Assembly (NCBI RefSeq): GCF_024347535.1
Contig: NZ_AP025498.1
Span: forward strand, 310,001-374,000
Source of the DNA: Vibrio kanaloae
GTDB lineage: Bacteria; Pseudomonadota; Gammaproteobacteria; Enterobacterales; Vibrionaceae
DNA: 64,000 bases
Direction: 5' to 3'
In this document: in pieces, positions 23,061 through 29,746 of the stretch
How positions within the stretch are numbered: the stretch's first letter is position 1
Layout of the letters: every line of letters begins with the position of its first letter
Program-made: the position numbers and the translations under genes
Notes under the pieces: model-generated
Told to the model about the DNA's origin: nothing
Seen by the model: only the letters and a program-made list of their open reading frames with translations
Database searches by the model: none

Positions 23061-23100
23061 AATAAAGCCCCTCGTTTTGTTATAAACGAAGGGCTTTATT
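23061..23100 (-). terminator. Terminator of secD2-secF2
   Basis: A 17-bp stem with one C-A mismatch and a 6-base loop. On the minus strand it ends in GGGCTTTATTTTTT. Confidence 0.88.
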
Positions 23101-23140: not shown

Positions 23141-24094
23141 CTAAGGGTACTCACCCTCAATTTCTACTGGTGGTTTCACTTGGTAGTGACAAGGCTGTAG
23201 TCCAAGTAACTTAGGCAGTGTGATGCCTACGGAAACGGAAGACCACGTACCGCTGACAATACCGACAACCAGTGCAATCGCGAAACCTTGCAGTGCTGCG
23301 CCACCAAGCAGCCAAAGCGCTGATACGGTGATCAACGTGGTTCCTGATGTCACCATGGTGCGTGAGAAGGTCGCTTTAACCGATTCGTTAAGCAGGTTGT
23401 CCGTATCACCGTTAGGGTTACCTCGTAGCATTTCACGAACACGGTCGGCAATGATGATCGAGTCATTCAATGAGTAACCCAAAATCGCCAACACAGCCGC
23501 TAACACAGTCAGGTTGAACTCGAACTGAGTAAAAGCGAACAGACCTAAGATAAGCATCACGTCATAGATGATCGCAGCAAGTGCACCCAATGCCAAACGC
23601 CATTCAAAACGTACACTCAGGTACAGCATGATCATTAGGAAACACACTAGTACCGCCAAGCCACCTTGATCAACCATGTCTTGACCCACTTGAGGGCCAA
23701 CTACGCTGCTGTTGAGCACTTTTACTTGGTCACTCACAGAAGACAAAGCATCCACTAAGTTTGGTTGTGGCGCATCGGTCAGTTGACTGTAACGTAGTGT
23801 CCAGCGGTCTTGTTCTGCCATACCAACCACTTGCACGTCTTGTTGGAAAGCCGTATCAAGTTTTGTTTTTAACGCATCTTTGGTTACTTGATCAGAGAGC
23901 TGAACCTCGGCAACCACACCGCCTGTGAAGTCCAAGCCCCAGTTAAAACCTTTCACCGCCACCAGCATCACAGAGCTCATGAACAGCACAATAGATATCG
24001 CAGACATCACCTTACGAAGGCGAGTCATATTGCTGTCTGAAATATAGCGGTCTGAAATATTGCTGTTTGAGTTAGTCATATTTGAAATACTCAT
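23141..24094 (-). CDS. secF2: Protein translocase subunit SecF (second copy)
   Basis: A 317-residue inner-membrane protein with six membrane spans and a large periplasmic loop; with SecD it uses the ion gradient to pull proteins out of SecYEG. GFNWGLDFTGGVVAEVQL near residue 50 is the SecF signature, and GYSLNDSIIIADRVREMLR near 205 lies in the conserved fourth span. The N-terminus has a five-residue repeat (SNSNI, SDRYI, SDSNM). It starts two bases after the secD stop. No yajC or queA/tgt is adjacent, so this is the Vibrio second set controlled by VemP, not the housekeeping set. Confidence 0.93.
   Translation of the reverse strand: MSISNMTNSNSNISDRYISDSNMTRLRKVMSAISIVLFMSSVMLVAVKGFNWGLDFTGGVVAEVQLSDQVTKDALKTKLDTAFQQDVQVVGMAEQDRWTLRYSQLTDAPQPNLVDALSSVSDQVKVLNSSVVGPQVGQDMVDQGGLAVLVCFLMIMLYLSVRFEWRLALGALAAIIYDVMLILGLFAFTQFEFNLTVLAAVLAILGYSLNDSIIIADRVREMLRGNPNGDTDNLLNESVKATFSRTMVTSGTTLITVSALWLLGGAALQGFAIALVVGIVSGTWSSVSVGITLPKLLGLQPCHYQVKPPVEIEGEYP
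24027..24071 (-). repeat. Three tandem 15-bp repeats in secF2
   Basis: Three abutting 15-bp units (ATATTGCTGTCTGAA, ATATAGCGGTCTGAA, ATATTGCTGTTTGAG, plus-strand reading) encode three five-residue units in the cytoplasmic N-terminus of SecF2. The in-frame repeat could change copy number. Confidence 0.8.
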
Positions 24095-24096
24095 GC

Positions 24097-25890
24097 TTAA
24101 ATCCTTACGTCGTGGCGTTGGTCACGCCCCCAAACCAAATTGATGATCGCGCGTGACGCAAAAATGCCTGTAAACATACTGGTTAGAAGACCCAAACCTA
24201 AGGTCAATGCGAACCCTTGAATTGGTCCATTACCAATGGTGTACAGAGCCACGGCAACAATCATGGTGGTGACGTTGGCATCGAAGATTGAAGAGAATGC
24301 GCTATCAAAGCCACGGTCGATGGAGCTCGCAAAGCTGCGTCCTTCTTTCATCTTGTCTCGAATACGCTCAAAGATAAGCACGTTGGTATCGACCGCCATA
24401 CCGACCGTTAATACCAAACCCGCAATGCCTGGCAGGGTTAATACCGCACCCGGTAGCATTGCAATCAAACCAAATAGAGTGGTCATGTTAACGACCAATG
24501 CAGCGTTCGCAACCCAACCAAGGCGGCGATACCATAGCGCCATAAACGTGAGAGTTAGACCAAGGCCAAGTGCCAAAGCAGCAAAGCCGTTAGTGACGTT
24601 TTCAGCACCCAGAGATGGGCCAATGGTACGCTCTTCAATGATGGTCACTGGCGCAGTCAATGAACCAGCACGAAGCAATAGAGCCAGCTCTTGTGCTTCA
24701 GCCATGCTGCCTGCACCTGTGATTCTAAAGCGGCTACCCAATTGAGATTGGATGTTCGCCACACTGATCACTTCACTGGTTTTCTCGCTGTTACCGGCTT
24801 TGTCACGGCTGTATTCGCTGTAAACAGTCGCCATTGGCTTGCCGATGTTATGGCGAGAAAACTCAGACATTTTCTTACCACCCGCTGAATCCAGTGTGAT
24901 GTTTACTTCTGCGCTGCCCATCTCACCAATGCCACTGCGCGCATCGATAATGTGTTCACCGCTCAGCACTGCTTTGCGAGCAACCACGACACGATTGCCA
25001 TCTGAATCTTTCAGAGTTTGAGTATTGAGCGTTGCGTTGTCGTACACAGAGTAGAACGCTAATGAAGCCGTAGCACCAATCACGTCTTTCGCAGCTGCAG
25101 GGTCTTGTACACCCGGTAATTCGATACGGATACGGCTTTCACCTTGGCGTTGAATCGATGCCTCAGTGATGCCTAGCTCTTCAATACGGCTGCGCATGAT
25201 TTGCAGGTTTTGCTGAACCGTTAGGTTACGTAGCGTTCTTTGCTCTTCTTCAGACTGAGTTAACGTTAGCGATTTATCTGAACGGTCACGTTGCCATTGT
25301 GGGAACTCTTCACGAATCAGTTTTTGTGCTTTTTCGAAATCTGCATCTGTACGGAAGTTAAATTCAACTTGGTTGTTCATCACTTTACCGCGTGCATAAC
25401 GCACTTGGCTGGTGATCTCGTCGACCATAGCTTGAGCTTGTGCGTGATAAACCGTCTCCATATCCACTTCTAATAAGAATTGCACACCGCCACGTAAATC
25501 AAGGCCTAGCTGAATTGGTGCGAAGCCCATATCAGTTAGCCATTTTGGTGCTGCTGGCTCCATCGCGAGAGCAACCGTTGCGTTGTCTAGTAGGCGATCA
25601 TTCAGCACCTCTTTGGCTTTCGCTTGCTGCTCGGCATCTTCTAGGATAACCACTAAACGTTTGTCTTTTTGAAAGGCTGATTTGGCTTGGATGCCCTCGC
25701 TCGCAAGGTATTGAGTTACCTGAGTAGCATCGATAGTTTGCTCAGAACGGTTACTGATTTGAACCGAAGCGTTCTCGCCATACCAAGACGGCAGAGCACT
25801 TAGAACCATGATGACGATGGTGGCGATAAGCACCACGTATTTCCACTTTGCGTAGTGGTTGATTTGTTTTCTTGGAATGCGCTTTTTCAC
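24097..25890 (-). CDS. secD2: Protein translocase subunit SecD (second copy)
   Basis: A 597-residue inner-membrane protein. An N-terminal span is followed by periplasmic P1 domains with GLDLRGGVQFLLEVD near residue 130. The C-terminal membrane part has RTIGPSLGAENV, GIAGLVLTVGMAVDTNVLIFERIRD and FDANVTTMIVAVALY. The GMAVDTNVLIFE segment is the diagnostic fourth-span motif. I prefer the GTG at 25890, because AAGAAGAGA lies about 8 bases before it, over the TTG two codons upstream. The vemP gene upstream is separated by a 340-base leader. By analogy with V. alginolyticus, expression rises when VemP stalls the ribosome. Confidence 0.92.
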   Translation of the reverse strand: MKKRIPRKQINHYAKWKYVVLIATIVIMVLSALPSWYGENASVQISNRSEQTIDATQVTQYLASEGIQAKSAFQKDKRLVVILEDAEQQAKAKEVLNDRLLDNATVALAMEPAAPKWLTDMGFAPIQLGLDLRGGVQFLLEVDMETVYHAQAQAMVDEITSQVRYARGKVMNNQVEFNFRTDADFEKAQKLIREEFPQWQRDRSDKSLTLTQSEEEQRTLRNLTVQQNLQIMRSRIEELGITEASIQRQGESRIRIELPGVQDPAAAKDVIGATASLAFYSVYDNATLNTQTLKDSDGNRVVVARKAVLSGEHIIDARSGIGEMGSAEVNITLDSAGGKKMSEFSRHNIGKPMATVYSEYSRDKAGNSEKTSEVISVANIQSQLGSRFRITGAGSMAEAQELALLLRAGSLTAPVTIIEERTIGPSLGAENVTNGFAALALGLGLTLTFMALWYRRLGWVANAALVVNMTTLFGLIAMLPGAVLTLPGIAGLVLTVGMAVDTNVLIFERIRDKMKEGRSFASSIDRGFDSAFSSIFDANVTTMIVAVALYTIGNGPIQGFALTLGLGLLTSMFTGIFASRAIINLVWGRDQRHDVRI

Positions 25891-26230
25891 AGTCAAGATC
25901 TCTTCTTTTTACCAATCACGGTGAATAAATGAACGACACTAGCGCAGGAAAAAGGCTTGAGAACAAGGCAGGATTTTTCGATAAGTAGCTATTCTACAAT
26001 CAAAAATTCTAACGCAGTTATCGAGCATTTTAACCAGCTAGGGTGTCCAGTTATTTACTACGATTGGTATGTCTAATGTTTTGCGAACACGAGCGATAGC
26101 TAACCGCAACCAGAACAAGCTGATTGAAAGATAGTGATGCAAAAGCTGATGTCGCTATGTTTGTGTTGGTTAACTGGCGAGATCAACGGGCACAAGTGAC
26201 CATCGATACAACCAATTTAGGGTCAAACGA
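25891..26230 (-). promoter_or_regulatory. Leader between vemP and secD2
   Basis: About 340 untranslated bases. In V. alginolyticus an RNA structure here hides the secD2 ribosome site until VemP stalls. I see the secD2 site AAGAAGAGA and a complementary CUUCUU in the last vemP codons (26237-26242), only 6 bp and long range, so the switch cannot be confirmed by eye. No other gene is visible. Confidence 0.45.
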
Positions 26231-26743
26231 TTAGCTAAGAAGTTCTCGGAAATGCGAGTACTGGATGTTGCCCTCTTTCCACCCAGCAAGCCGGGAGGAC
26301 GGGGAACTCACAATGCTGGTCCAGTGCTGCTTGGAATCCAACAATGGTGTGTTGAAAAGCAGAGAAGCCAGTAATGAAGGGGGAGAGAAGTCGATCAATA
26401 GATGATAAGCAGGCTCAAGATCGGCCACGCTTTCTTGCTCGTTACTGAGCATACGTCTGAAGTTTGCTGCTTGAAGGCTTGATTCGGTGTCGTGATAGTT
26501 GGAACTGTCACCAGAAGGCACGGTGCCAAACGGAACCTTATCGCACTCTAAATAACCCGACGGATTATCCGTAGTGGCTTGTTTACACTGTTTTATCGAG
26601 GAAGATTGTTCATTCTGCGAAGGTTGCTCTTGAGCTGAGTATATTTGGAATGGCTTAGAAGGGAACGAATAGCCGTTAGAATTCACTAAGCCAAAGCTCA
26701 GTAAAAACAACATTAAGACTAATCGGGTACCTAGTTTAAGCAA
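26231..26743 (-). CDS. vemP: VemP-type export-monitoring arrest peptide
   Basis: A 170-residue secretory protein. It has a signal sequence (LGTRLVLMLFLLSFGLVNSNG), a Ser/Gln-rich middle and a C-terminal SRLAGWKEGNIQYSHF segment. This lines up with the arrest motif of V. alginolyticus VemP, as I remember it, at Arg, Gly-Trp-Lys-Glu, Asn and Tyr. VemP stalls its own ribosome near the last codons until its signal is pulled through Sec, and the stall opens secD2 translation. Here too the motif ends a few codons from the stop and secD2-secF2 follow. TTG is the likely start; an ATG ten codons later would shorten the signal's n-region. Middle residues differ between species, so annotators would call it hypothetical. 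Confidence 0.82.
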   Translation of the reverse strand: MLKLGTRLVLMLFLLSFGLVNSNGYSFPSKPFQIYSAQEQPSQNEQSSSIKQCKQATTDNPSGYLECDKVPFGTVPSGDSSNYHDTESSLQAANFRRMLSNEQESVADLEPAYHLLIDFSPPSLLASLLFNTPLLDSKQHWTSIVSSPSSRLAGWKEGNIQYSHFRELLS

Positions 26744-26900
26744 TGAACAACAATCCTGAATGGTAGAAACAGTGACAATATAGAACAGCTATGAAAGTTA
26801 CAATTGATTTGAAATCACAACCGCCGACATTTGACACTACGCTGACAATTGTTCACCTCATTGCGCTGTGTTTGCGCATCCTGCGTCGCGAGAAAACAAA

Positions 26901-26926
26901 AAGCCAAATGACTTAACATTTGGCTT
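26901..26926 (-). terminator. Terminator of the M16 protease gene
   Basis: A perfect 10-bp stem AAGCCAAATG / CATTTGGCTT with a 6-base loop. On the minus strand TTTTTGTTTT follows. Confidence 0.88.
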
Positions 26927-26983
26927 CGCTCCAAACCCGCAGATTCAGGGCTGATAGGTTACTTACCTGAAAAGCGATTTAGC

Positions 26984-29746
26984 TTAGCTTTGTGGTCTTA
27001 ACAAGTTCTTCAATTTATAACTGTTATCGCCAAAAATCTCTTTCGCATACTCCGTCATGTCTTTACTAGAAATAGAATCCGTCATTCTCTGTAGATCAAA
27101 CAATGCTTCAACACCATAGTCATGAATTAAGTAACGCGAAATAAACCAAGCTTGTTCAGTCGGCTTAGTTTGGAGTGGAGTGAGGTCTGCCAACAGCTGC
27201 TTAGCTGCCGTTCGAGTCTCATCTTCAGAAATCCCTTTTGCAGCTTCAACAATGACCTTATCAATCGCCTGTTCAATTTTATCTGAGTTTTCTGGAGCCG
27301 TTAAAGAGCCGATTAGCCAGTCATAGCTAGGCTCACTGTCTTGTGCGACCGAGTACACATAAGGCGCATAATCCAAACCTAACTCTTCACGAACATAAGC
27401 CGTTAAACGGCTCGACAACACACGCTGAAGCATATCGTCCATAAACACATCTTTTGCAGTTTTATCCCGAGCTTGCTGGGAAATCACACGCAATAAATAC
27501 TGGCTGCTGTCTTCATTATTGATGGATATATCCATTCGTTCTTTCGAATCAGTACTATAAGCCACCTTATAATGAGGAGACACAACGGCTTCTAGTGGCA
27601 ATGAAGCAACATATTGACGCACAAGAGGCTTGATTTCAGCGGGGTTAATATCAGCAACAATAACTAACGTATTGTCTCTCAATTTTTGAAAGAGTTGATG
27701 CTGCACGTTAAGTATATCTTGCGACGTGACAGCTTTGATATCGTCACTTTCAAGCATCATGTGGCGGCTGCTTGTTTGATAGCTATTGCGATTAACCATC
27801 TGAATAAATTGCCCCACAGGTGTTTCTAGATATGCGGTACGAGATTGAGCAAATTCAGACTTCACGGCCTCAAGCTGGTCACTGTCTATTTTAGGTTCAG
27901 TTACAATGGTGTGGAGCGCAGCTAAACCTTCTGCAAGCGTCTTTTTCTTGGCGCTTATTTCTAAGCCATGATGAGTAAAGTTGATGAAGGGATAGATTTC
28001 AATGTCTTCGCGTCTCAAGTGAGCGGTTAGCTCCGAACCACTAAATTTACCAACACCACTACGAATCGAAGCTTGCAGCGCAATTTCTACAGCAGGAAAC
28101 AGCGAAGGATCCAACGCCGCTTTTCCACCCTCACTCGCATAGTACACGCCAACATTATTACCCGCCTCAGAGTTACGTAAGTACCAAACTTCAATGCCGT
28201 TGCTTAATGTCCATTGCTTCAAATTAGGCTCGTCACTCACCTGAACTTGCTTTACAATTTTTCCTTGAGACGCTGGCACACTAAACGCAGAGCTTGCAGT
28301 AACGAGCAATGGTTTGTTGCCAGTTTTCTTATAGGCTCTCCTGACATCTTTTAGCTCGTCATTCATTGCCTGCAAATCTTCTTTAGACGATAAACCTAAT
28401 CCCAAAATATAAGGACTTGAAAGTAAATCATCTAAATTATCATTTACGGCTTTGAGATCTGTACTCGAAAGAAACTCTTTTAAACTCGATTTATAATCAA
28501 GCTGTGATTGAACCGTCTGGTTAATCACCAGTGCCGTCGACTTACCATTCGCATGAGCCACTGCATCCATTTTTTCCCAGTTCACTTGAATGTCATCAAG
28601 ATTCGCTTGGTAGGCCTGTATTACACTCATAAACTCATTCTCACTCACGCCATGATCACGTAAAGAAGAGAGAGTAGAAATAAACTGCTGCTGACTTTGC
28701 TCTCGACTATCGGCAGGAAAGCCAACCGTTGTAATAGAATAGCGTTGGTACTCTAATAAGTAAGGAATCGAAGCAACCCATTGCACTGGTAGCGCAGCGT
28801 CAACAAAGTCAGAATTCAATCTTTGTTGGATAAGTTGCTGAGCTATTTCGTCTAACCAAAGTTGATGTTGCTGCTCATGGCTGTGTGTCACTCTTTCCCC
28901 ACGATCAATGACAATCCCGATACTTGGTGACTCGCTCCCTGCGACGTACGCCACAAAATCTTGAGTATTGTAGTTCGTTGATAATTTCTTCACGGGAACA
29001 GGTGTCGTGCCTCTTTGCCAACTAGAGAAGCTTTTTTCGATCAACGGAATCACTTCTGCCAATGTAATATCACCTGAAACAATCACCTCGGTTAGTTGAG
29101 GTTGATACCAGGTTTGATAAAAGTTCTCTAATTCTTTGGCACTCACATTAGAAACGGATTTTTTATTGCCCATGGGATCGTGGCTTTGGTAATTCGTACC
29201 GTCAACCATATGATTATAGAACTGAAACGAAAGAGGCTTATCTTTAACTCGCGAGTGTCGAAACTCCCCAAGTATTACTCCTTTCTCTTTTTTGGTCTCA
29301 GTTTCGGAGAGCAGTAAACCATCACCAATATCTCTAAACCATGCCAGCGCTTTGTCTAGATTTTTATTATCGGGTAAATCCAACTTATAGAGCGTTTCTT
29401 GGTAAGAAGTATAAGCATTTAAGTCAGCGCCAAAGCTAGCACCAGATTGCTCAAATAGTTCTACTACATCATTACCTGAAAAATTTTTGCTGCCATTAAA
29501 CGCCATATGCTCAACAAAATGGGCGTAACCTTTTTGTTGTTCGTTCTCTTGAAAAGATCCGGCGTGAACAAGTAGGCGTACTGATACGAGTTGTTCTCGG
29601 TCAGGGTAAACGTGGTAGGTTAAGCCGTTATCTAACTCACCTGTGACCCAATATGGATCGGATTTCAATAACGTTTGCTGCTGAGGCGTTGAGCTGCAAC
29701 CTAGCAACGCGGTACTTAATACGACGACTAAATAGTGTGCTTTCAT
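26984..29746 (-). CDS. M16 family zinc metallopeptidase lipoprotein
   Basis: A 920-residue two-lobed insulinase/pitrilysin-type protease of the PqqL group. The start MKAHYL was chosen from AGAGAG upstream and a clean lipoprotein signal ending LLGC (Cys17). The inverted zinc motif HFVEH is at residues 76-80, followed by the conserved acidic stretch TKKEKGVILGEF. A second inactive M16 half lies at residues about 520-900 (LKQWTLSNGIEVWYLRN and later AYVREELGLDYAPYVYS). It acts in the periplasm or at a membrane, degrading peptides. Single gene with its own terminator, next to the TCS operon but separated from it. Confidence 0.88.
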   Translation of the reverse strand: MKAHYLVVVLSTALLGCSSTPQQQTLLKSDPYWVTGELDNGLTYHVYPDREQLVSVRLLVHAGSFQENEQQKGYAHFVEHMAFNGSKNFSGNDVVELFEQSGASFGADLNAYTSYQETLYKLDLPDNKNLDKALAWFRDIGDGLLLSETETKKEKGVILGEFRHSRVKDKPLSFQFYNHMVDGTNYQSHDPMGNKKSVSNVSAKELENFYQTWYQPQLTEVIVSGDITLAEVIPLIEKSFSSWQRGTTPVPVKKLSTNYNTQDFVAYVAGSESPSIGIVIDRGERVTHSHEQQHQLWLDEIAQQLIQQRLNSDFVDAALPVQWVASIPYLLEYQRYSITTVGFPADSREQSQQQFISTLSSLRDHGVSENEFMSVIQAYQANLDDIQVNWEKMDAVAHANGKSTALVINQTVQSQLDYKSSLKEFLSSTDLKAVNDNLDDLLSSPYILGLGLSSKEDLQAMNDELKDVRRAYKKTGNKPLLVTASSAFSVPASQGKIVKQVQVSDEPNLKQWTLSNGIEVWYLRNSEAGNNVGVYYASEGGKAALDPSLFPAVEIALQASIRSGVGKFSGSELTAHLRREDIEIYPFINFTHHGLEISAKKKTLAEGLAALHTIVTEPKIDSDQLEAVKSEFAQSRTAYLETPVGQFIQMVNRNSYQTSSRHMMLESDDIKAVTSQDILNVQHQLFQKLRDNTLVIVADINPAEIKPLVRQYVASLPLEAVVSPHYKVAYSTDSKERMDISINNEDSSQYLLRVISQQARDKTAKDVFMDDMLQRVLSSRLTAYVREELGLDYAPYVYSVAQDSEPSYDWLIGSLTAPENSDKIEQAIDKVIVEAAKGISEDETRTAAKQLLADLTPLQTKPTEQAWFISRYLIHDYGVEALFDLQRMTDSISSKDMTEYAKEIFGDNSYKLKNLLRPQS

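Follow-up and report, generated by a model that had tools for sequence, protein, structure and literature searches.

A putative VemP-like gene of a second lineage upstream of secD2-secF2 in Vibrio kanaloae

VemP of Vibrio alginolyticus arrests its own translation, is released from arrest by translocation, and is accompanied by a stem-loop that masks the secD2 site (PMC5449182, PMC7793623, PMC11470409); this and the other VemP background used here comes from portions of PMC10987492, PMC11470409, PMC5449182, PMC7793623, and PMC8887479. Mutation of 17 of the 19 residues of its stalling window affects stalling, L153, N154, and Q156 are important for the arrest, and N154 contacts U2506 and U2584 (PMC5449182), while a (hydrophilic)xP motif lies 18–20 residues before Arg-85 (PMC11470409). 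Fujiwara et al. described in 2024 a VemP-like cluster of 339 sequences with an RxxxWKxxNxxY-like motif (PMC10987492). The subject of the present analysis is a VemP-like gene in a stretch of 64,000 nucleotides (nt) of the Vibrio kanaloae genome (contig NZ_AP025498.1, positions 310,001 to 374,000), referred to below as the window. On its minus strand the operon order is vemP-like (26743-26231), secD2 (25896-24097), and secF2 (24094-23141). To judge by their sequences, these genes probably constitute a type II VemP export-monitoring operon, in which an anchor shared with V. alginolyticus VemP would be combined with a lineage-specific tip, and a stalled ribosome would free secD2.

The original prediction had placed a 170-residue open reading frame (ORF) with a VemP arrest motif ahead of secD2-secF2, and both its coordinates and the motif are borne out. 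The ORF ends in RLAGWKEGNIQYSHFRELLS, and its arrest core, R151-L-A-G-W-K-E-G-N-I-Q-Y162 (RLAGWKEGNIQY, 26258..26293, minus strand), matches R139-Y150 of the reference VemP, the 159-residue protein of locus L015, chosen as the V. alginolyticus-type reference because all 23 positions named in the portions of the VemP papers used are occupied in it by the expected residue. At the tyrosine the match ends. The following tail, SHFRELLS (26234..26257, minus strand), occupies the place of VALNSQFSA in the V. alginolyticus-type (type I) proteins, and F, R, and L stand at the positions of L153, N154, and Q156; the tail of the characterised type is thus absent, and because of these replacements the same arrest as in V. 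alginolyticus is not to be assumed. Of the predicted VemP switch before the second secDF pair, the VemP-like monitor at this place holds, with a motif match that goes no further than the tyrosine.

The conservation of the core was followed in a census of 171 records (the window, 30 loci, 80 named loci, and 60 further places from a SecD2 match list), which overlap, as one genome may occur in both collections, and form a non-random sample, the match list having been sorted by SecD2 score and its best rows taken. In 169 of them a same-strand ORF at most 1500 nt upstream of secD2 has the core, or a close variant, at its end; the two without an upstream core are L044, with 171 nt upstream examined, and L073, with 893 nt, in which the ORFs carry no motif. 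Among the named loci the core precedes secD2 outside Vibrio too. Its place and this conservation exclude a chance origin. The short DNA pattern alone is no evidence against chance, since the pattern for WK[ED]xxNxxY occurs once in the 4.65-Mb genome, at this locus, and a reversed control pattern is commoner, occurring twice.

The tails fall into two types. Type I tails (77 records, 42 distinct) have Y, V, L, and N of YVALN in 42/42 and A in 41. Type II tails (92 records, 57 distinct) keep R, W, K, and N in 57/57 and have no VALN; their tyrosine position is Y in 45, F in 8, and H in 4, and their N154 position is H in 22, Q in 20, R in 5, L in 4, G in 3, S in 2, and A in 1, that is, H, Q, or R in 47 of the 57. 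A SecD2 tree made by a quick search with no bootstrap (82 rows, comprising 80 loci, the window, and a SecD1 outgroup) has one branch that separates 25 type I from 54 type II rows, with one change (Shimodaira–Hasegawa-like approximate likelihood ratio test value 98); L044, L073, and SecD1 belong to neither tail group. The named type II rows come from Vibrio, Photobacterium, Shewanella, Parashewanella, and Motilimonas, the type I rows from Vibrio and one Photobacterium; V. hangzhouensis (L060, L119) and V. amylolyticus (L064, L108) have one copy of each type.

As the original prediction expected, most of the protein is unlike the characterised VemP: its best BLASTP segment against L015 is the 12-residue core R139-Y150 (E 0.001), and the other segments are insignificant. 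A profile of a 30-sequence splendidus-like type II subset aligns with type I in the core region only (97.2%), and the alignment of all type II (87) with type I (64) sequences reaches the Arg-85 region, where R97 pairs with R85 (98.4%). Once the core is removed the profile probability falls to 35.8% for all type II sequences and to 5.9%, with no R85 alignment, for the subset, so that homology of the two types outside the core is suggestive only. The ungapped counterpart of (hydrophilic)xP, residues 77-79, reads SGD; T74-V75-P76 would fit three residues off, and its proline is missing in homologues P0001 and P0016. The bridge between type I and type II is formed by the shared core, the profile alignment, and the place of the gene.

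The window protein has the published motif and context and lacks features of the characterised type; it is therefore placed in a second lineage of VemP-like monitors and kept apart from the V. alginolyticus type. Against the cluster of Fujiwara et al., as far as the parts of the paper used here go, it agrees in the motif near the C-terminus (R151-Y162) and in being encoded directly upstream of secDF on the same strand, and the two-copy species given there (V. hangzhouensis, L060, and Vibrio sp. 10N.286.49.B1, L063) each have a type II copy in the present census. What differs is that in those parts the cluster is not split in two, no type II member is assayed, and chaA is unmentioned (PMC10987492). 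The type II sequences are probably listed already as VemP-like in the supplement of that paper. Titles and abstracts of the literature on VemP together with Shewanella or splendidus yielded nothing on type II tails.

Within the splendidus clade, 35 distinct sequences reveal what is kept as protein. From R to Y of the core 1 of 12 residues is variable and 9 of 11 degenerate codons vary synonymously; in SHF these figures are 0/3 and 3/3, and in the stretch 33–67 codons from the vemP end 15 of 35 residues are variable. Conservation of the core and of the first tail residues is thus at the protein level. The end of the gene follows another rule: the synonymous sites of codons R166-S170 (CGAGAACTTCTTAGC, 26234..26248, minus strand) are nearly frozen. 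The last six codons (CGA GAA CTT CTT AGC TAA) are synonymously invariant in 6/6 cases against 7/48 elsewhere among 16 sequences, and in 4/6 against 5/53 among the 35, the remaining two deviating once each; the Fisher P of 0.0036 for the latter comparison is optimistic, as the sequences are related and their independence is overstated.

This pattern bears on the view that the peptide no longer arrests and that vemP is a translated leader, secD2 being controlled only by ribosome passage or RNA folding. The absence of the known critical residues would suit such a leader, as would the RNA-level constraint on the last codons and the vemP of one genome (G240), apparently split between frames, so that loss may be tolerated there. 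It is nevertheless improbable: core and SHF are strongly constrained as amino acids with synonymous change free, and R, W, K, and N persist in all distinct type II tails across at least five genera.

The tails also bear on the opposite view, that stalling follows the mode of V. alginolyticus VemP in every detail, with an inner helix, the peptidyl-tRNA site (P site) at Y+6, a side chain at the N154 position blocking U2506/U2585, and tail differences that are conservative. The core is the same, the N154 position is mostly polar or charged (the H, Q, and R tails counted above), and Y+6 still lies inside the window tail. Such stalling is all the same unlikely, given the mutational sensitivity of the 17 residues and the nucleotide contacts of N154 in the portion of PMC5449182 used, and given tails that are hard to fit to the same helix or contacts, namely those of the Motilimonas type with a proline at Y+2 and those of five Shewanella loci with F at the Y position (L067, L071, L074, L077, and L080). 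Stalling as such by type II VemP is likely, and its last step probably differs from that in V. alginolyticus.

For the type II operon proposed here the following course of events may be envisaged. The ribosome making VemP would pause at the C-terminal end unless the Sec machinery pulls the chain. The conserved RxxxWKxxNxxY core would anchor the chain in the exit tunnel, as in V. alginolyticus, and the lineage-specific SHFRE would block the catalytic centre, R taking the place of N154, where most other type II tails have H or Q. As long as no ribosome is stalled, synthesis of SecDF2 would be lowered by pairing of the R-E-L-L-S codons with the ribosome-binding stretch of secD2; a ribosome halted on the tail would cover these codons and free secD2. 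Arrest, its site, release by force, and a response to Na+ are what we infer for the window protein. The last vemP codons would then serve two codes at once, as the peptide tail and as a mask for the next gene.

RNA folding predictions agree in part with this scheme. The secD2 ribosome-binding stretch, AAAAAGAAGAGATCTTG (25894..25910, minus strand), precedes a GTG start at 25888-25890 or includes a TTG start at 25894-25896, and its predicted partner is CGAGAACTTCTT, the codons R-E-L-L of vemP. The likeliest partners lie in the last vemP codons in 18/18 splendidus-clade sequences, with peak probabilities from 0.41 to 1.00; in this clade the pairing is predicted with or without the insert in the leader described below. 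In two outlying loci, L055 and L056, the residues are changed (DSLY, DSLS) and the pairing is still strong (−10.3 and −10.6 kcal/mol). Ranked by pairing against 1000 synonymous recodings, the native tail falls in the top 3.5 to 20% (median 6.5%, 18 sequences). When the footprint of a stalled ribosome is masked with the P site at Y+2 to Y+8, mean accessibility rises from 0.44 to 0.67–0.73, and with the P site from Y upstream it stays at 0.44–0.49. In these models the secD2 ribosome-binding stretch is likely to pair with the vemP end.

Several results weigh against the proposed operon switch. In the window itself the opening is small, the accessibility being 0.63 free, 0.70–0.78 with the P site from Y+1 to the stop, and 0.42–0.65 with the P site further upstream, and in the wider masking simulation it rises from 0.41 to 0.53. 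The vemP tail has competitors for this partner, as pairing of equal or greater strength is predicted for 1 to 9 of the other 119 in-frame windows of vemP, a count that takes in overlapping windows. With a generic definition of the ribosome-binding site the vemP-end pairing averages 0.28 in 91 type II and 0.12 in 77 type I sequences, and a generic scan of 168 records gives mixed pairing partners. In the wider masking simulation 14/18 splendidus-clade, 31/73 other type II, and 24/77 type I records gain more than 0.1, and 0, 1, and 3 of them, respectively, lose more than 0.1. An upstream control block also gained on masking in 6 of the 18 splendidus-clade, 3 other type II, and 2 type I records. 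The reference-like type I locus L015 shows almost no gain (0.09 to 0.11) despite its known biology, which makes the masking simulation weak. In a cross-pairing table the tails show no preference for their own partner. At the protein level, the residues matching L153, N154, and Q156 differ, as described above, and the literature, as far as it was covered, yielded no arrest data for any type II protein. The idea that the two arms coevolve with their own partners was rejected on the basis of the cross-pairing table.

The leader between vemP and secD2 (25897..26230, minus strand) measures 334 nt from the vemP stop to the TTG start at 25896, or 340 nt to the GTG start at 25890. The segment 25910..26069 is a repeat resembling a miniature inverted-repeat transposable element (MITE): it is short (160 bp) and non-coding, bounded by terminal inverted repeats (TACCAATC/GATTGGTA), and present in many copies. 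In its own genome 19 matches were found, the window copy included; in an alignment of the 14 near-full copies the distance between the termini is exactly 160 bp in 11, and the ends carry at most TA at both as target-site duplication. The insert is absent from 9 of 18 aligned loci, whose leaders are 135–178 nt long, and among 37 distinct splendidus-clade leaders its terminal sequence is present in 24 (4 in the long form) and absent in 13. The extra leader length is thus due to an insertion missing in part of the close relatives, and the MITE would be a passenger within the leader. The original prediction had suggested an RNA switch in this leader, and a leader of such length, predicted to be well paired, could be read as a sensor RNA in its own right, whether a riboswitch or another structured element. 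Such a sensor is very improbable, since the insert accounts for 160 nt and recurs in 14 near-full genome copies, its end sequence is absent in 13 of the 37 distinct relatives, and no match in 25600-27000 attains the gathering score of its Rfam family, the only one being a Staphylococcus small RNA at 20.3 of 100 bits outside the leader. The riboswitch proposal was accordingly dropped. A promoter within the MITE was also considered and rejected: one site matches 9 of 12 positions (26033-26006), with 4 such sites in the region against 4.9 expected.

The vemP-like gene (26231..26743, minus strand) is supported as an ORF for 170 residues with a TTG start, by 41 homologues, and by the upstream-ORF census; its start codon is uncertain, since some homologues, of 154 amino acids, start at an internal ATG. 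By inspection only, the N-terminus has a basic start and a hydrophobic run of about 13 residues and no clear AxA site. Comparison of the protein with NCBIfam models (E 0.1), Pfam models (E 1), and PDB chains (E 1) gave no match. The 41 listed homologues are unnamed or called "(conserved) hypothetical protein", the label that had been foreseen; those with an organism name come from Vibrio. With the C-terminal 66 residues as query 41 proteins were listed, and as each is at least 73% identical over the query part, no V. alginolyticus-type VemP is among them. secD2 (24097..25896) and secF2 (23141..24094), both on the minus strand, match NF009545 (983 bits, cut-off 728) and TIGR00966 (267.5 bits, cut-off 160). 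Two minus-strand terminator-like hairpins with T-rich tails, one 3′ of secF2 (23061..23100, 17 pairs) and one between the upstream gene and vemP (26900..26927, 11 pairs), frame the operon, which therefore looks like one transcription unit; the region has 9 terminator-like sites, against 3.9 in shuffles. The genome, of 4.65 Mb in two contigs, has one VemP-like ORF by protein search and two SecD genes above the cut-off, SecD1 being on the other contig.

A search with the window VemP matched 70 of 227 genomes of the genus. Among 12 weaker matches inspected, seven lie beside secD2 and five do not, and in L234 and L226 the gene following the VemP-like ORF encodes a ChaA-like antiporter, with Pfam Na_Ca_ex above the cut-off and NCBIfam ChaA as the best model, below its equivalog cut-off (312 and 325 of 505 bits). 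ChaA-like matches were found in 54 of 329 genomes of the family and none in the genome of the window at E 1e-40. Examination of 46 of the 61 listed antiporter places gave 11 with VemP-SecD2-SecF2-ChaA, 6 with VemP-ChaA, 11 with SecD2-SecF2-ChaA without a VemP motif (secD2 being partial or in pieces in L268, L278, and L280), and 18 with ChaA and neither VemP nor secDF2. The six genomes with no secDF2 between VemP and ChaA are L234 (3718-5549, minus strand), L226 (4723-6551, plus strand), L237, L238, L277, and L279, with L234 and L237 being near relatives (98% in ChaA). The gap between SecF2 and ChaA is 0–26 nt (aligned ends) in 8/8 named type II loci with chaA; the gene is absent in the other 45 of 53. 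This gene order suggests that VemP may control chaA, a link for which a whole-word search of the literature collection used, for VemP with ChaA, gave no paper.

Other VemP-like ORFs and related clusters were seen in passing. Conserved ORFs with the tail KYR[LI]G..QESNLIYRF[IM]HAR, in which the core W and K are replaced, occur in L223 (3728-4144), L224 (1781-2197), and L225 (3565-3981), all on the plus strand, directly preceding a DedA-family gene in L223 and L224. The same loci have, on the minus strand, orphan ORFs with the tail HL[AP][RG]WKQANLLYVF.HSRDA (L223 5370-5834, L224 5029-5493, L225 5207-5746). Behind them in L223 and L224 comes a 105-residue protein that begins in a signal-like manner; the copy in L223 has no Pfam or NCBIfam match. 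A possibly decayed VemP-like ORF (tail CIYGCNNNNLQYKFTHSRHY) stands before chaA in L304 (4784-5242). A further SecD-SecF-ChaA cluster without an upstream VemP motif is found in L282-L288, L291, and others, several genomes having three secD matches. The split gene of G240 (C2:473572-474059), apparently divided between two frames, is a possible natural null allele.

Taken more broadly, and tentatively, VemP might be a modular arrest cassette with one tunnel anchor and at least two mechanistically different blocking tips, distributed over two old operon lineages and at least five genera, with other outputs including chaA. If so, a cation/proton antiporter would also be turned on when weak Na+-driven export is sensed, possibly rebuilding the Na+ gradient, and through the link to a ChaA-like antiporter the monitoring of export would be coupled to ion homeostasis. 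Closure of the catalytic centre in the V. alginolyticus structure is ascribed to the helix that ends in Q156, together with N154. Type II would keep the anchor and not this tip, so that comparing the two types would separate the anchoring of the chain from the block of peptide-bond formation and make type II VemP a natural test of how such proteins stop the ribosome.

With V. alginolyticus VemP the window protein shares the place before secDF2, the core residues R139, G142, W143, K144, E145, N147, and Y150 (in reference numbering), a secretory-type N-terminus by inspection, and, possibly, a counterpart of Arg-85 in R97. It differs in the tail, SHFREL here and VALNSQ there, in the tryptophan preceding the core, W141 lying 10 residues before the core R151 whereas W124 lies 15 before the core R, and in the accompanying SecD2, which belongs to the other clade. 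With the SecM-secA, MifM-yidC2, and uDF_RQH-secDF2 switches the proposed operon would have in common that the start site of the downstream gene is masked until a ribosome stalls; it is set apart from them by their other arrest motifs, which in SecM and RQH are RAGP/RAPP-like.

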